Source of the DNA: Desulfosporosinus sp. FKB
GTDB lineage: Bacteria > Bacillota > Desulfitobacteriia > Desulfitobacteriales > Desulfitobacteriaceae
DNA length: 64,000 nt
Direction of reading: 5' to 3'
NCBI RefSeq assembly: GCF_002196705.1
Contig: NZ_NADJ01000014.1
Coordinates: forward strand, 1 to 64,000
A program made the position numbers and the translations under genes. Positions 21,990 to 28,478 of the stretch are shown piece after piece. Under the pieces are notes generated by a model, which was given only the letters and a program-made list of their open reading frames with translations, made no database searches and was not told where the DNA came from. The first letter of the stretch is position 1; each line of letters begins with the position of its first letter.

Positions 21990-22086
21990 TGAGGACACTT
22001 TCACCGAAAACGCCTTAGCCCATAACAAATGCTATCGCGTTGAAGGATGGACTCTACTCCCACGTGTAGAAGTGGTTAGATAAATA
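21990..22086 (+). repeat. repeat fragment R4b (type B), next to the structured RNA
   Basis: Matches internal and 3' parts of the type B copies R7 and R9: GACACTTTCACCGA, CATAACAAATGCTATCGCG, GAAGGATGGACTC and a CCCAC...TAGAAGTGG end, closing TTAGATAAAT. It begins 10 nt after R4 and ends at the terminator of the large RNA, so two insertions lie back to back. Confidence 0.75.
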
Positions 22087-22707
22087 AAAACCGCCTCTCA
22101 AATTGAGAGACGGACTTTATTTGGACAATAGGAGGCTAAAGAGTCAATATTGAGGCTTAGGTCAAGTAGGTTTTCCCGCTGAGTTCCTTCGGTTTCCCTA
22201 AAGGCGATTTCTCCTTTTCCCCAGCCTGGGATGTCGCCATCACCAGAACTTGATCACCACTTAGTCCTCACTTCAATCCTCTTTAGTTAACGTTCTAGAA
22301 GTTTCCTTAACACTCCTAGACAATCTAGCCTCTTTTGCAGAAAAGCATTTCCGGCAGTTTGAAAAGCATCGGCCAACGCCCTCCAAACCTCTTAAAGCCT
22401 TCCCAACTTTTCCACCTCAAGGCAGGCTACACTGCACTAAGTTCCTTCCTAATGCAGGTTCTACCCTAAGCCGTAGCTATAAAAGCCACGCACTTAGGCC
22501 TCCACGGAAAAGGGTAGCGCCCGCATGCCATTGCGGATCCCCCTCATTCCTTAACTCCCAGCAACAACCCTCGACTGGGCGTCGAAAGCCACCACCAGGA
22601 ACTTCATCGGTATGCCCTCGGCGGATTATTAGGCCCGCCTTCGATTGCCAATCGTGCACTAGAATAACGCTCCATAGCCCAAAGCAAAATTAGTTGTTGT
22701 GATTACA
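22082..22707 (-). ncRNA. ~620-nt structured noncoding RNA (OLE-class candidate)
   Basis: No convincing ORF covers this stretch, yet it has its own sigma-A promoter, a strong terminator (stem 22091-22113, T tract 22082-22090) and dense self-complementarity. The two ends pair: GGCUAUGGAG near the 5' end with CUCUUUAGCC near the 3' end, extended by CGUUAUU/AAUAUUG. Internal hairpins include GGCGG/CCGCC, UCGAC/GUCGA, CCGCA/UGCGG, CCUAAG/CUUAGG, CUGCA/UGCAG, GCGU/AUGC and GGCGA/UCGCC. It lacks hallmarks of RNase P, tmRNA, SRP RNA and group II introns. Size and host type fit OLE RNA, but the usual partner gene oapA is not adjacent, so the class is inference. Confidence 0.8.
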
Positions 22708-22713
22708 TTGCCT

Positions 22714-22742
22714 ATTGTACCTGATTATCATAACTTTGTAAA
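22714..22742 (-). promoter_or_regulatory. sigma-A promoter of the large ncRNA
   Basis: TTTACA (22737-22742), 17-nt spacer, TACAAT (22714-22719) on the minus strand; expected start near 22707. One of the best promoter matches in the window. Confidence 0.85.
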
Positions 22743-22865
22743 AAACCTTTTAGCCATTTATACCTTCGATTAATAAAGTATAAAGATAATTACGGATTCT
22801 TTTTGTCATCTAAGCTAAGTTTTTTAGATAAAATCAGTTATTTAGACACTAAAAAAGCAAAACTA

Positions 22866-24233
22866 TTAGTTGGATAAACTTGTAATTGGAGCAGGAATCC
22901 GACCGCCGCGATTAATAAATGTTTTCGAGGAAAATGGATGAACATTCATGACCGGAGCTCCGCCCAATAGGCCTCCAAATTCCACACGTTCCCCAGCCTT
23001 TTTACCGATAGCAGGAATGATTCTGACAGCAGTTGTTTTTTTATTAATCATTCCAATAGCAGCTTCGTCAGCGATTATTGCCGAGATGGTTTCAGAACTC
23101 ACATCCCCTGGCACGGCAATCATATCTAGTCCAACAGAGCAGACACAGGTCATGGCTTCCAATTTATCAAGATCCAGAGCCCCAACCTCCACAGCCTTAA
23201 CCATTCCGGCATCCTCTGAGACAGGGATAAATGCACCACTTAAGCCTCCCACATGAGAAGAAGCCATGGCGCCGCCCTTTTTAACCGCATCATTTAACAA
23301 GGCTAAAGCAGCCGTCGTACCATGCGTTCCACAACGTTCAAGGCCCATATTTTCCAGAATCTCAGCCACACTATCCCCAATAGCCGGTGTTGGAGCCAAG
23401 GACAAATCGACAATTCCAAAGGGAACTTGTAAAGCCTTCGATGCTGCTCGGCCAATCAGTTCACCCATTCGTGTAATTTTAAAGGCAGTCTGTTTTATAA
23501 GATTGGAGAGTTCCCCAAAATCTGCATCAGGAAATTCTTTCACAACTTTTGCTACAACCCCCGGACCGCTTACCCCAACATTAATCACACAATCTGGTTC
23601 TCCAACACCATGGAATGCACCCGCCATGAAAGGATTATCTTCTGGAGCATTACAGAAAACAACAAGTTTAGCTGCACCAATTCCATCTTGAGCAGAAGTT
23701 TTTTGAGCGCAATTTAAGATAACTTCTCCCATTCGTTTGACTGCATCCATATTTATTCCAGCTTTAGTCGTTCCGATATTTACTGATGAACAAACAAAAT
23801 TTGTTTCACTCAGGGCCTGAGGAATAGCATCAATTAAAGCTAAGTCTCCCTCCGTAAATCCCTTCTGCACTAGAGCAGAAAACCCGCCAATGAAATTTAT
23901 GCCCAACTCATTAGCAGCTCGATCTAAGGCTTTTGCAATTCTTACCATTCCTTCTGAAGATAAATGAGCTGCTGCGATAGCAATCGGTGTGACTGAAACA
24001 CGTTTGTTGATTATGGGAATTCCATAACGAGATGAAATTTGTTCTCCTACCGTCACTAAGTGACTTGCTTTTTTTACGACCTTATCATATATTTTTCGTT
24101 CTAAACTATTTATATCCTCTGTGACACAATCCAATAAACTGATTCCCATAGTAATGGTTCTAATATCAAGATTTTCTTCATGAATCATCTTAATAGTTTG
24201 TTGAATTTCCTCACGGGCAAATGTAATCGTCAT
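22866..24233 (-). CDS. UPF0210/DUF711 family protein
   Basis: 455 aa from ATG 24231-24233, selected for the GGAGGG site nine nt before it; the open frame continues 26 codons upstream and would overlap the spacer and the end of the ACT gene. UPF0210 proteins are widespread in Firmicutes and have a PFL-like fold by family annotation, but no radical glycine segment is seen here. Conserved features are Gly-rich loops ([37 protein letters not shown]). It is paired with an ACT-domain gene 43 nt upstream, the usual partner, which suggests ligand regulation. No enzymatic function is established. Confidence 0.92.
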
Positions 24234-24276
24234 AAACGATTTCCCTCCACAATTACCTTCTTTAAATTCTTTTGTT

Positions 24277-24570
24277 CTAAATGCGATGCATATAGGTAAA
24301 TATATCCTCATGCTGAACTTTTACTTGTAACCCTTTATTGAGCCCCTCTTGTTCAAGAGTATTGGCTAATTCCACCAATTCCAACGTTGACGATTTCAAA
24401 TCGACCACCATGATCATTGTAAAAAATTCCTTGAGGATTGTCTGACTGATATCTAAAATATTTACGTTATATTCGGCAAGTTTCGTCGCAACCCAAGCGA
24501 TGATACCAATCTGATCCCTACCGATAACCGTAATTATGGCACGTCCAGACTCTTCGCGAATCATTGTCAT
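24277..24570 (-). CDS. ACT-domain protein, UPF0237 family
   Basis: 97-aa stand-alone ACT domain, starting near [22 protein letters not shown] with the ILDISQTIL and FTMIMVVDL strands typical of the family. ACT domains bind amino acids or similar small effectors. It stands just ahead of the UPF0210 gene, an association kept across many bacteria, so the two probably act together. Confidence 0.92.
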
Positions 24571-24653
24571 AAGTTTTCCTCCTTAGCTTACTTATATAAA
24601 CAATCGTTCATCAATATCCAGAATAATTTTACGCTGGGAACCAATAATGCTAA

Positions 24654-24677
24654 AAGAGAGCCCCCGAGAGCTCTCTT
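24654..24677 (-). terminator. terminator of the HesB-like gene
   Basis: AAGAGAG (24654-24660) / CTCTCTT (24671-24677), GC-rich at its top, followed by TTTTA on the minus strand. Confidence 0.75.
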
Positions 24678-24690
24678 TGAAAACTACTTA

Positions 24691-25017
24691 TCAGGAACAA
24701 CCGCCACCGCAGCTTCCACAACCGTCACTGCTAGGGTTCGCTGTGCGGATTTCGAATCCTCCGCCTTGCTTAGAATCAATAAAATCAATTGTAGCACCCT
24801 CTAAATAAGAGGAAAGCTTCTTATCGGTGAGTATTGATACGCCGTAACCTTCATCAAGTATGTCATCTGTTGTCTTTGACTCATCCAGAGTCATGCCGAA
24901 ATTCGGCCCACCTCAACCAACGCCCACTAAATAAAGTCTAAGAAATGCATTTTCTTTATTTTGACTTTTAAGCACTTCTTTAACTTTTTGAGCTGCGAGT
25001 TCTGTAATCTCTACCAT
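24691..25017 (-). CDS. HesB/IscA-like selenoprotein (in-frame TGA = Sec35)
   Basis: ATG at 25015-25017 with AAAGGAGTGAG before it opens a frame of 108 codons plus stop that is interrupted once, by TGA at 24913-24915. Before the TGA the product is MVEITELAAQKVKEV ... RLYLVGVG; after it GGPNFGMTLDE ... and the CGSCGGGCS tail. In HesB/IscA proteins this position (GVGCGGPxFG) is the first conserved cysteine, so TGA most simply encodes selenocysteine. HesB-like selenoproteins are a known prokaryotic family. A SECIS-like hairpin follows at the right distance. Calling only the part after the stop would give a false 67-aa protein. Role: probably iron-sulfur or redox chemistry. Confidence 0.88.
24878..24892 (-). 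promoter_or_regulatory. putative bacterial SECIS hairpin
   Basis: GACUC-UGGAU-GAGUC, a 5-bp stem with a 5-nt loop bearing G at its second position, starting 20 nt after the UGA. Bacterial SECIS elements need an apical-loop G roughly 16-37 nt after the UGA, which fits. A second hairpin (GCCGA/UCGGC) lies between them and is the alternative. Confidence 0.65.
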
Positions 25018-25123
25018 AAATCTCACTCCTTTTTTTCTCGCTAGTCCTAAATATACCATATTTTTAGAGTTTGACCAAGGGAAATTAAAATAAAACCAAA
25101 AAGCTTAAGCTGCAATCTAAAAG

Positions 25124-25360
25124 CTAGACTTCTTCCCCGCTTCCTGACGCACGAAAATCTTTTAAAAATTGTCGAACTTCGACTTCCAAACTTTCTGGAA
25201 GGTCCTGCGTAATAGTTTGCCAATGTTTTACTTCAAAGTTTATTTTCTGAGCCCAATCTCCTTCAGGCCAAGAAATAAATGTTTTTGGTTCTGAGAACGT
25301 GTAAGTTTTCAGAAAAACTATAAACCCTATGAGAAGTAAAACACGCCAAAACCAACGCAT
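25124..25360 (-). CDS. small membrane-anchored hypothetical protein
   Basis: 78 aa with a single N-terminal transmembrane or uncleaved signal segment (WRVLLLIGFIVFLKTY) and a short acidic extracytoplasmic part ending GSGEEV. No family recognised. It lies downstream of the HD-domain gene on the same strand with a 56-nt gap. Confidence 0.55.
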   Translation of the reverse strand: MRWFWRVLLLIGFIVFLKTYTFSEPKTFISWPEGDWAQKINFEVKHWQTITQDLPESLEVEVRQFLKDFRASGSGEEV

Positions 25361-25416
25361 TTCAAATCAATCCTTCCAAATAAGCTAATAACTATAGCTT
25401 ACCCAAAAGAAATGAT

Positions 25417-26013
25417 TTAAATCATTTCTCCATGTAATTTATGCCAAAATTCTTCCATATATGAGAATAACGGTTTGAAATAATTTAGAGCCGACTTGGT
25501 AAACAAATGCTCATGATAACTTCGAATTTTCTCTTGATAGAAGGATTCGCAGGAATTTTCTCCCACAAGGGGCCAACCTTGTACTCCACCTAAGGTAAAT
25601 AGGCGACCCAAACCAATTGTGCCTACAAAATCCAATTTATCCGCATCATATAATATTTTGGCCTCAAGGGTTTTGGGCTCATACCCTTCTTCGCGAGAAT
25701 GAGCAATAATAGCTTCTTTTACTCTTAAAATAACATTCTCAGGATATCCTGCTTTGTGAAGAATGTTAACTGCAAGTCCTGCGCTGCTCTGGGCATGGGT
25801 TTTTTCTACAGCACCTGATCTTCCAATATCATGTAATAGAGCCGCAAGTTCTATTACTGTTACATCTGCGCCTTCTGCTAGGGCTAACTTTTTACCCCAC
25901 TCTCTGACTCTTAAGGCATGGTCTAAGTCATGGGCCCGATCTTTGCGCGCATAGAAACCTTTGGCAATTTGGACAACCTGTTCAAAATTTCCTTGACTTG
26001 TTTGAAAATCCAT
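25417..26013 (-). CDS. HD-domain phosphohydrolase
   Basis: 198 aa from ATG 26011-26013 (MDFQTSQGNF), with GGGGGTGG before it; an ATG five codons earlier is the alternative. The metal-binding set is present: H in DHALRV, the HD pair in LLHDIGRS, H in IIAHSREEGY and D in ILYDADKLD. This pattern matches YedJ-type stand-alone HD hydrolases, probably acting on nucleotides. It follows pepF in the same direction, 79 nt downstream of the pepF start region in gene order reversed on this strand; no pathway is implied. Confidence 0.88.
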   Translation of the reverse strand: MDFQTSQGNFEQVVQIAKGFYARKDRAHDLDHALRVREWGKKLALAEGADVTVIELAALLHDIGRSGAVEKTHAQSSAGLAVNILHKAGYPENVILRVKEAIIAHSREEGYEPKTLEAKILYDADKLDFVGTIGLGRLFTLGGVQGWPLVGENSCESFYQEKIRSYHEHLFTKSALNYFKPLFSYMEEFWHKLHGEMI

Positions 26014-26092
26014 GTTGTCCACCCCCATTCAGCGTTCAATACCTCTGCTGTGTACTATTGCCAATAATATTACTCCTCAAAATCTTGCCTTG

Positions 26093-27895
26093 TCAAGTAA
26101 GGAGACCTTCTAAACGGCCAATGAGTTCTTCAAAAACTAACAGGGCTTCGCGAACCGGTTGCGGCGTCTCCATATCAACACCGGCTCCACGCAGCAATTC
26201 TATGGGATAGTCTGAACCACCGCTGCTTAAAAACTTAAGATATTTAGCTACAGCTGATTCACCTTCCTTTAAAATTGCCCGTGCAAAGGCTATTGCTGCT
26301 GAAAAACCAGTAGCGTATTTATATACGTAAAAGGAATTATAGAAATGGGGAATGCGGGCCCACTCAAGGGCAATTTCCTCGTCTAAAATTATATCTTCGC
26401 CATAATAAGCCGCATTTAAGTCACGATAGATTTCAGAAAACTGATCTGCGGTCAAAGCTCCTCCTCCTTCGACAATTGCATGAGTCTTCTTTTCGAATTC
26501 GGCGAACATAGTTTGTCGGAAAATTGTACCTCTGAATTGCTCAAGATAATGGTTTACTAAATAGGCAAGAAGTTTTGTGTCTTTAGTCGTATCCAGAAGA
26601 TGCTCCATTACGAGAGCCTCATTCAACGTCGAGGCCACCTCGGCAACGAATATTTTATAACCTGCATAGAGATGAGATTGAGCATGATTGGATAAATAGG
26701 TATGCAAGGAATGTCCCATTTCGTGAGCTATAGTGAACATAGAATCGAGAGTATCCTGATGATTCAATAAAACATAGGGATGCGAACGATAGGTGCCCCA
26801 AGAATATGCTCCACTCGTCTTACCTTCATTCTCATAAACATCAATCCACCGATTGTCAAATCCCTCTTGCAAAACCTTGAGATAATCTTCTCCCAGAGGT
26901 TTTAAACCCTTAAAAACCATAGATTTAGCCTCTTCGTAGGAAATCTTCATGGTAGTTTCAGGTACGATAGGAACATAAATATCGTACATATGTAATTCTG
27001 TGAGATTCAAGGCTTTCTTGCGCAGGCGAATATATCTATGCATTTGGGGAAGAAAATCATGGACAGTCTCAATTAGAGAATCGTAGACCTTTAAAGGGAC
27101 ACGATCATCGTCTAAGGATGCCTCTATTGCCGAGGGATATTTACGCGCTTTGGCAAAAAATGCATCAGACTTAATGTTGGAATTTAGAGTTGCTGCCCAA
27201 GTATTACGCTGCTTTCCGTAGGTTTTATAGAGAGTTTCAAAAGCAGCTTTACGTACACTTCTCTTTGAGCTCTCCATAAAATGAATGAAATTTCCCTTCG
27301 TCAACTCAACCATTTGACCTGTTTCGTCTTCTATTGAAGGAAATTTCAGATCTGCATTATTAGCCATTGTAAATATTGCACCCGGTGCTTCGGCTAATTC
27401 GCCGACACCAGCCAATAATTTCTCTTCAATTGAACTCAGTATATGGTCTTTCTTACGCAGGATATCTTCAAGAGCGTGATTATAGAGTTTTAACGTTTCC
27501 GATTCTGAGCGAAATTCATTCAGCCTTCCCTCGGGCATTGCTAACAATTCAGGAACAACAAAAGCAGTTGCACTGCTCACCTTTACGGCAAGCGCTCCTG
27601 CACGGTCCGTCATTGCTTGATAATTTGCCTGGCGATTATCCTCATCTCTGCGCATTCGGGCATACGAGTAGACCTCTTCAATTCGCAAACTGAGATCATC
27701 CATCCACTCAAAACAAGAAACTAAAACACTTGAAGAATCTCCGAGTTGACCTTCGAATTTTTTACCTACATCTAACAGCCTCTCGATATTGGCATACTCC
27801 TGTTCCCATAAGTCATTCGTCTTGAATATATCTTCCAATCGCCATTTCGAGGTCTCAGGAAGTTCTTCTCTGAGCTTAAGTCGTTGATGTTCCAC
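26093..27895 (-). CDS. pepF: oligoendopeptidase F (M3B family)
   Basis: Cytoplasmic zinc metallopeptidase that trims short peptides. At 600 aa it is the normal length; the active site HEMGHSLHTYLS holds the HExxH zinc motif, and the downstream Glu ligand lies in VASTLNEALVMEHLL. The N-terminal PepF domain starts about residue 110, and GVDMETPQP near the end is typical. A single gene. It may serve general peptide turnover rather than any peptide uptake system here. Confidence 0.95.
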   Translation of the reverse strand: MEHQRLKLREELPETSKWRLEDIFKTNDLWEQEYANIERLLDVGKKFEGQLGDSSSVLVSCFEWMDDLSLRIEEVYSYARMRRDEDNRQANYQAMTDRAGALAVKVSSATAFVVPELLAMPEGRLNEFRSESETLKLYNHALEDILRKKDHILSSIEEKLLAGVGELAEAPGAIFTMANNADLKFPSIEDETGQMVELTKGNFIHFMESSKRSVRKAAFETLYKTYGKQRNTWAATLNSNIKSDAFFAKARKYPSAIEASLDDDRVPLKVYDSLIETVHDFLPQMHRYIRLRKKALNLTELHMYDIYVPIVPETTMKISYEEAKSMVFKGLKPLGEDYLKVLQEGFDNRWIDVYENEGKTSGAYSWGTYRSHPYVLLNHQDTLDSMFTIAHEMGHSLHTYLSNHAQSHLYAGYKIFVAEVASTLNEALVMEHLLDTTKDTKLLAYLVNHYLEQFRGTIFRQTMFAEFEKKTHAIVEGGGALTADQFSEIYRDLNAAYYGEDIILDEEIALEWARIPHFYNSFYVYKYATGFSAAIAFARAILKEGESAVAKYLKFLSSGGSDYPIELLRGAGVDMETPQPVREALLVFEELIGRLEGLLT

Positions 27896-27998
27896 AAAAT
27901 TCCCTCCTTGTTGTTCGTCACACTTATTATATACATACCCAACAGAAATACCATTTTTCTATTAAGTTTATATAAAAAGGCTGTAGCCGCTATCTGAA

Positions 27999-28478
27999 TT
28001 ATCTAATCTGCCACGTCGTATATGGCCTTCTAGCCAAGTTAATGTTAAAGTATGCTGAATCATGGGTAATGTCCCGTTCCCAGTTAACCCACTTTGGAAA
28101 CGTCAGGAAATATCCTACTTCCGGTATTTCAACGTCAACCGTTATTAAGCCCCGGTTTTCCATTTGATATACATCAACTTCCCAGATCAGGCCCCCATAA
28201 GGCAGCTCATACCTGATTTTTTCTATAGGAGGTGCAAGAGATATCCGCTTGAGAGCATCTTGTTCCTCTTGAGTTGAAGAGGGATTGAATGTTTCAATCT
28301 CCTGACGGCTGCCATCAGGCCGTAATTCTTTAACGGTTATTTTGATTGAATCCCCAAGGAGGCGGTAGCGTATTGACGGCACTTCTAATAAATATCCTTG
28401 TATTATGTATTGACCTCCGTGTAATTCCGGCAAGTTCTCTTGTTTCACCAAAAACTTCCGTTCAATTTCCAAAGCCAA
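27999..28478 (-). CDS. CYTH-domain (triphosphate tunnel) protein
   Basis: 159 aa starting MALEIERKFLV, which contains the ExExK signature (E4, E6, K8) of CYTH/TTM enzymes. Charged strands (RYRLLGDSIKITVKEL, KIRYELP, VDVEIPEV) line the expected tunnel. Family members hydrolyse tripolyphosphate or thiamine triphosphate, or make cAMP; short bacterial forms are usually triphosphatases. Single gene. Confidence 0.9.
   Translation of the reverse strand: MALEIERKFLVKQENLPELHGGQYIIQGYLLEVPSIRYRLLGDSIKITVKELRPDGSRQEIETFNPSSTQEEQDALKRISLAPPIEKIRYELPYGGLIWEVDVYQMENRGLITVDVEIPEVGYFLTFPKWVNWERDITHDSAYFNINLARRPYTTWQIR

Follow-up and report, generated by a model that had tools for sequence, protein, structure and literature searches.

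A predicted HesB/IscA-type selenoprotein encoded across an in-frame UGA codon in Desulfosporosinus sp. FKB

Results

The hesB locus

The window analysed here, a stretch of 64,000 nucleotides from Desulfosporosinus sp. FKB, carries at positions 24691-25017 of its minus strand a gene for a putative HesB-like selenoprotein of 108 residues, recognized from profile matches, homologues and pN/pS; the plus strand at these coordinates yields no such protein. An in-frame UGA (24913-24915, minus strand), the predicted selenocysteine codon 35, stands in the context GVG-U-GGP, and its two flanks share a single frame as the original prediction had held: the ATG at 25017 is followed by 34 codons, the UGA at 24915-24913, 73 further codons and a UGA stop at 24693-24691. 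The good ribosome site claimed for the start is likewise in place, an AGGAG (25026-25030, minus strand) being readable in the sequence 8 nt 5' of the ATG. Read through the UGA, the product runs GVG-U-GGPNFG...DGCGSCGGGCS, and alignment bears out that the UGA replaces the first conserved cysteine of a HesB/IscA-type protein. With the UGA taken as cysteine by the scoring program, the protein matches PF01521 at 39.9 bits (cut-off 26.3) and TIGR00049 at 74.1 bits (cut-off 58.8), and by this test it belongs to both families. The mechanical ORF list contains only a 67-residue piece (24691-24894), just as had been said of automatic calling, which makes the locus a clear example of a gene cut in half by standard-code calling. 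A PF01521 scan of the organism's own genome returned the Cys copy alone and missed the window gene, which other searches detect. An inverted repeat 3' of the stop codon (24653-24678, minus strand), read by eye, may be a terminator whose T tract is weak; a terminator scan did not call it.

The gene lies in a conserved order on one strand, namely a 78-residue gene, hesB, an ACT gene and a DUF711 gene. The first of these (25124-25360, minus strand) is directly 5' of hesB, and its product is hydrophobic at the N-terminus and matches no Pfam family; the ACT-domain gene (24277-24570, minus strand) is directly 3', and the DUF711 gene (22866-24239, minus strand) completes the group, both being conserved neighbours by neighbour comparison. 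No Fe-S Pfam match was obtained for any of the three. Within the fetched flanks, same-strand relatives of the 78-residue gene occur at 62 of 98 Sec loci versus 1 of 52 Cys loci and the ACT gene at 54 of 98 versus 2 of 52, in tblastn counts where species occur twice and flank lengths vary. Both ACT-bearing Cys loci, in genomes G029 (91% complete) and G037 (87% complete), also retain DUF711 and have cysteine at position 35; in neither genome was there a selA match or a selB above the cut-off. Just 3' of the DUF711 gene lies an OLE RNA, a large structured RNA (22116-22691, minus strand; RF01071, 409.9 bits), which was the one match in an Rfam scan of positions 22000-28000 at gathering thresholds; the same scan returned zero selenocysteine elements.

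Conservation of the UGA codon and its reading frame

The match search was positive in 82 of 150 genomes, the organism's own included, and the family set comprised 150 rows (82 genomes and 39 named loci, some loci fetched twice) with 112 distinct sequences. UGA stands at codon 35 in 68 of these 112, the window's counted. The other 44, a class that takes in any row without UGA, all have a cysteine in that stretch except L087, so that with one distinct exception the homologues carry Cys or Sec at position 35, the comparison that the original prediction had proposed. L087 (4001-4366) and L125 represent a HesB-like paralogue in which ESSDGP replaces the GxG-C/U-GGP motif and which therefore has neither Cys nor Sec at the first ligand position. 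The protein of D. acididurans M1 is 98% identical to that of the window. On a maximum-likelihood tree (112 kept columns) the Sec/Cys state needs eight changes, four of them forced by well-supported branches, with many forks open. Extra UGA codons in the tails of L083/L109, L142, L152 and L164 were considered as a second selenocysteine; each is better read as an ordinary stop.

Under the standard code only the short ORF is obtained, which would favour a genuine stop at the UGA, leaving either a pseudogene or a 67-residue protein started from the ATG at 24894. The selection pattern argues against this, for the upstream codons are under in-frame purifying selection: pooled pN/pS is 0.157 for codons 1-34 versus 1.195 when this DNA is read with a shift of one base, and it is 0.237 for codons 36-91 (29 Sec genes chosen by score, 28 comparisons with the window gene). 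The in-frame flanks are thus not a product of chance. The recurrence of UGA at the same codon in the 68 distinct sequences argues in the same direction, and relatives conserve the UGA together with the frame that precedes it, so that the contrary pattern which had been named in advance, a normal stop in relatives with no conservation upstream, is not what is found. With the covarying hairpin and the synonymous dip described below also speaking strongly against it, a genuine stop is highly improbable.

The hairpin downstream of the UGA

The predicted hairpin GACUC-UGGAU-GAGUC begins exactly 20 nt past the UGA, as had been stated, and is recovered by folding. As UGACUC-UGGAU-GAGUCA (24877-24893, minus strand) it is a candidate SECIS element, supported by covariation, a recoding test, synonymous rates and fold energy, with a stem of 6 bp, a 5-nt loop (UGGAU), G at loop position 2 and the loop 25 nt past the UGA. 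The available part of PMC13188914 gives as criteria for bacterial SECIS elements a loop of 3-9 nt, a stem of 4-16 bp, G in the first two loop positions, a UGA-to-loop distance of 16-37 nt and a minimum free energy of at most -7.5. The window hairpin falls within these printed ranges, the energy being reached by the 23-nt hairpin (-7.9 kcal/mol), while the 17-nt core at -7.1 is slightly short of -7.5. Folding the 46 nt counted from the UGA gives a z-score of -2.4; the 23-nt hairpin by itself gives -3.1.

From the 150 rows, the covariation analysis used 86 distinct 45-nt stretches (50 Sec and 36 Cys) and the recoding comparison 101 distinct 66-nt stretches; rows L089, L090, L148, L150, L158 and L159, where the position-35 pattern is absent, were left out of the hairpin comparisons. 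Standard pairs fill 98.0% of the 300 pair cells of the 50 Sec stretches, and the covariation score of 0.267 was equalled by none of 500 shuffles, with slid controls at or below 0.074. Both sides have changed at three of the six pairs (G-C to A-U or U-A, A-U to G-C, and C-G to U-A). Two of the five measures taken on the Sec rows lie within the shuffles, these being the both-side-changed pairs (103 of 500) and the further pair types (402 of 500). The 36 Cys stretches are 76.9% paired with a covariation score of 0.202, which 95 of 500 shuffles equalled.

The Sec rows (65 stretches) have on average 4.82 of 5 Watson-Crick pairs versus 2.30 under random synonymous recoding, and the Cys rows (36 stretches) 3.06 versus 2.00. 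Where the peptide is TLDES, all five pairs are present in 29 of 29 Sec rows and in 2 of 7 Cys rows; where it is ALDES, the two groups do not differ, all 6 Sec rows and all 3 Cys rows having four pairs. The small pairing excess of the Cys rows fits a remnant SECIS element. Synonymous change provides the sharpest contrast. In 29 Sec genes of the near clade its rate per site over codons 36-47 is 0.016, the median being 0.635, and by block it is 0.014 for codons 36-41, 0.018 for codons 42-47, 0.40 for codons 31-34 and 0.59-0.73 for the others. The 18 Cys copies give 0.746 for codons 36-41 and 0.533 for codons 42-47 with a median of 0.604 and so have no comparable dip, although their lowest 12-codon window likewise begins here, at codon 42, with a value of 0.478; the rows for this test (29 Sec and 18 Cys) were picked by score. 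Related sequences share history, so that the hairpin, synonymous-rate and pN/pS numbers are not independent trials, and kinship inflates the counts for Sec covariation, recoding, selA co-occurrence, pN/pS and synonymous rates.

A second small hairpin, GCCGA-AUU-UCGGC (24895-24907, minus strand), was seen by folding and alignment between the UGA and the candidate SECIS. It is kept in most near-clade Sec rows and missing from many distant ones, and in the near clade it is nearly frozen synonymously, lying in the block of codons 36-41 with its rate of 0.014 in the 29 Sec genes.

Selenocysteine machinery and other UGA-containing genes

All four genes to be looked for, selA, selB, selC and selD, were found in the genome, and the machinery whose absence would have spoken against the reading is complete. 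A tRNA-Sec with anticodon TCA is present, selB (SelB, 378 bits) lies on the same contig as the window gene, and SelA is matched at 571 bits. One selD (SelD, 408 bits) contains a UGA, at what we take to be the expected selenocysteine position, and a second selD in the same genome has Cys. Three FdhA matches exceed the cut-off, two with one UGA each and the third with none; the UGA-less fdhA has Cys at what is presumably the selenocysteine position.

In the near family (best family match about 93 bits or more), selA is absent from 3 of 42 genomes with the Sec form and from 6 of 7 with Cys forms only, in a comparison whose Fisher test treats related genomes as independent and in which partial selA matches in G009 and G038 were scored as present. 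The three Sec genomes without a selA match are G016 (85% complete), G035 (78%) and G036 (90%, selB present). Genome G070 has the Cys form only and is without selA, yet selB is present.

Readthrough of UGA occurs in bacteria, and the codon might accordingly be read as some other residue, by suppression or by a near-cognate tRNA. Such a reading leaves aside the tRNA-Sec, SelA and SelB of this genome, as well as a hairpin whose pairing and synonymous constraint are strong in UGA-bearing sequences and weak in the others. The other in-frame UGAs of the genome also stand against it, as they occur in SelD, presumably at the selenocysteine position, and in two FdhA matches over the cut-off. Insertion of another residue is hardly credible.

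Predicted structure and C-terminal tail

The AlphaFold model of the window protein (pLDDT 85, 33 sequences) has IscA, SufA, HI1723 and AQ_1857 as its closest structures, and the Foldseek comparison with IscA 1r94 (E 1.5e-7, TM 0.71 and 0.78) assigns it the A-type carrier fold. Sec35 is placed between strands 25-34 and 37-45. Residues 97-108 are disordered in the model (pLDDT <50), so that it does not place the tail relative to Sec35. The original prediction had the tail CGSCGGGCS add thiols beside the selenol. The tail is there, but its cysteines are not simply extra: C100 is nearly invariant among the Sec set, and the Cys-rich tail aligns with the C-terminal cysteines of the IscA-type rows.

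Surroundings of the Cys copies

The Cys hesB of the organism's own genome is 76% identical to the window gene and starts about 50 nt past the end of the Cys fdhA, with yedF and the Cys selD within 7.5 kb. In this region (G000:C4:95045-102479; L172 5043-12495) the Cys hesB, fdhA and selD are clustered with yedF, and UGA forms of all three genes lie elsewhere. We compared 19 Cys-hesB regions, the own genome's and 18 more that were drawn from 17 other genomes, for the most part around higher-scoring Cys copies. A Cys fdhA is directly 5' in six, a Cys selD with yedF is nearby in six, either feature is found in nine and both in three; one more region has a Cys fdhA about 5 kb away on the opposite strand. 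Nine of the 19, including all three of genus code g5, are without fdhA or selD/yedF. In fetched flanks of at most 4 kb, an fdhA match was found at 9 of 52 Cys loci, one at 25% only, and at none of 98 Sec loci; the Sec region L197 has a weak FdhA-like match (25%) about 5.6 kb away. These arrangements suggest that the Cys forms of hesB, fdhA and selD may make up a selenium-independent set of isoforms.

Discussion

The complete machinery, the conservation of the UGA, the synonymous dip and the covariation make it very probable that the UGA is read as selenocysteine via a bacterial SECIS element. In mechanistic terms, SelB carrying the Sec-tRNA would bind a hairpin some 20-36 nt 3' of the UGA, by virtue of which codon 35 would almost certainly be decoded by the ribosome as selenocysteine. 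Gene and decoding taken as one claim, we consider a complete 108-residue HesB/IscA-type selenoprotein to be highly likely on the comparative sequence data.

Published mention of HesB-like selenoproteins goes back to at least 2005, and they are named in the available parts of PMC1088965, PMC1242214, PMC1914089, PMC1794560 and PMC13188914, and the window protein is therefore a new example of an already known class. Its Sec-UGA replaces the first conserved Cys within the UxGP motif given in Table 1 of PMC13188914, and it is a HesB-like selenoprotein in the sense of the literature, outside both curated selenium models. With the proteins described by TIGR01911 and by the accessible text of PMC1794560 and PMC13188914 it shares Sec in U-G-G-P, a bacterial SECIS right after the UGA and the fold family. 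It nevertheless scores 47.6 bits against TIGR01911 (HesB_rel_seleno), where the cut-off is 66.35, in a match over residues 2-90 that stops before the Cys-rich tail, and 73.6 bits against NF038090 (IscA_HesB_Se), where the cut-off is 85, in a nearly whole-length match over residues 1-103. Among the 68 Sec proteins, one reaches each of these cut-offs, as judged by an approximate conversion of cut-off to E-value. The IscA/ErpA/SufA carriers resemble the window protein in fold, in the position of Cys35 and in their C-terminal cysteines, and differ in having Cys for Sec, in the CSGF of IscA-type rows against the UGGP of the window, and in the tail, which here is C-x2-C-x3-C. For Desulfitobacterium hafniense, the legend of Fig. 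4 in PMC1794560 describes a Cys HesB with a putative remnant SECIS; similarly, the Cys relatives studied here retain somewhat more of the hairpin than can be put down to codon choice, whereas the window gene retains the UGA and the full hairpin. The word Desulfosporosinus is absent from the main text of PMC1794560 and PMC13188914, and a literature search on Desulfosporosinus and selenoproteins gave no paper on this protein, judging by titles and the opening of abstracts.

The available part of PMC11097638 describes one archaeal HesB-like selenoprotein as identified by mutagenesis and 75Se labelling; it calls the function of the M. maripaludis protein unclear and records that a disruption mutant was unimpaired in nitrogen fixation. 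The literature searched, with subscription journals mostly outside its scope, gave no established function for a HesB-like selenoprotein and no Cys island. On fold and alignment, the leading reading of the role, at about even odds, is that the window protein acts as an A-type iron-sulfur carrier or an iron-binding scaffold, in which the Sec35 selenolate would replace the first conserved cluster-binding Cys and the C-terminal Cys cluster would supply the other ligands. The tail left unplaced by the model, the conserved neighbours without Fe-S Pfam matches and the M. maripaludis mutant count against this role. A selenoprotein engaged in thiol/selenol redox chemistry or in metal or selenium handling, and not in Fe-S delivery, is a serious possibility that falls somewhat short of even. 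The accessible text of a 2026 review (PMC13188914) deems most uncharacterized selenoproteins probably redox, and in 6 of 19 regions selD and yedF are found close to the Cys copy; set against this are a fold and Cys/Sec positions that match the A-type carriers, a motif that is UxGP and not UxxC, and the Cys copies that in 6 of 19 regions directly follow fdhA, the gene of an enzyme with several Fe-S domains.

Combining the Sec and Cys forms, one may speculate on a two-track selenium system in which dispersed Sec forms of HesB, FdhA and SelD are matched by a Cys island with yedF for selenium shortage. Either form of HesB would then serve formate dehydrogenase as well as selenium metabolism, and an Fe-S cluster with a selenolate ligand would be carried by the Sec form; we regard this scheme as doubtful. 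By the approximate conversion, hardly any of the 68 Sec relatives reaches either of the two NCBI selenium models, and members of the family may therefore be truncated in public annotation. A selenolate ligand on a delivered Fe-S cluster would, if true, be unusual chemistry, and genomes that contain a Sec and a Cys form side by side make the role of HesB-like selenoproteins testable.
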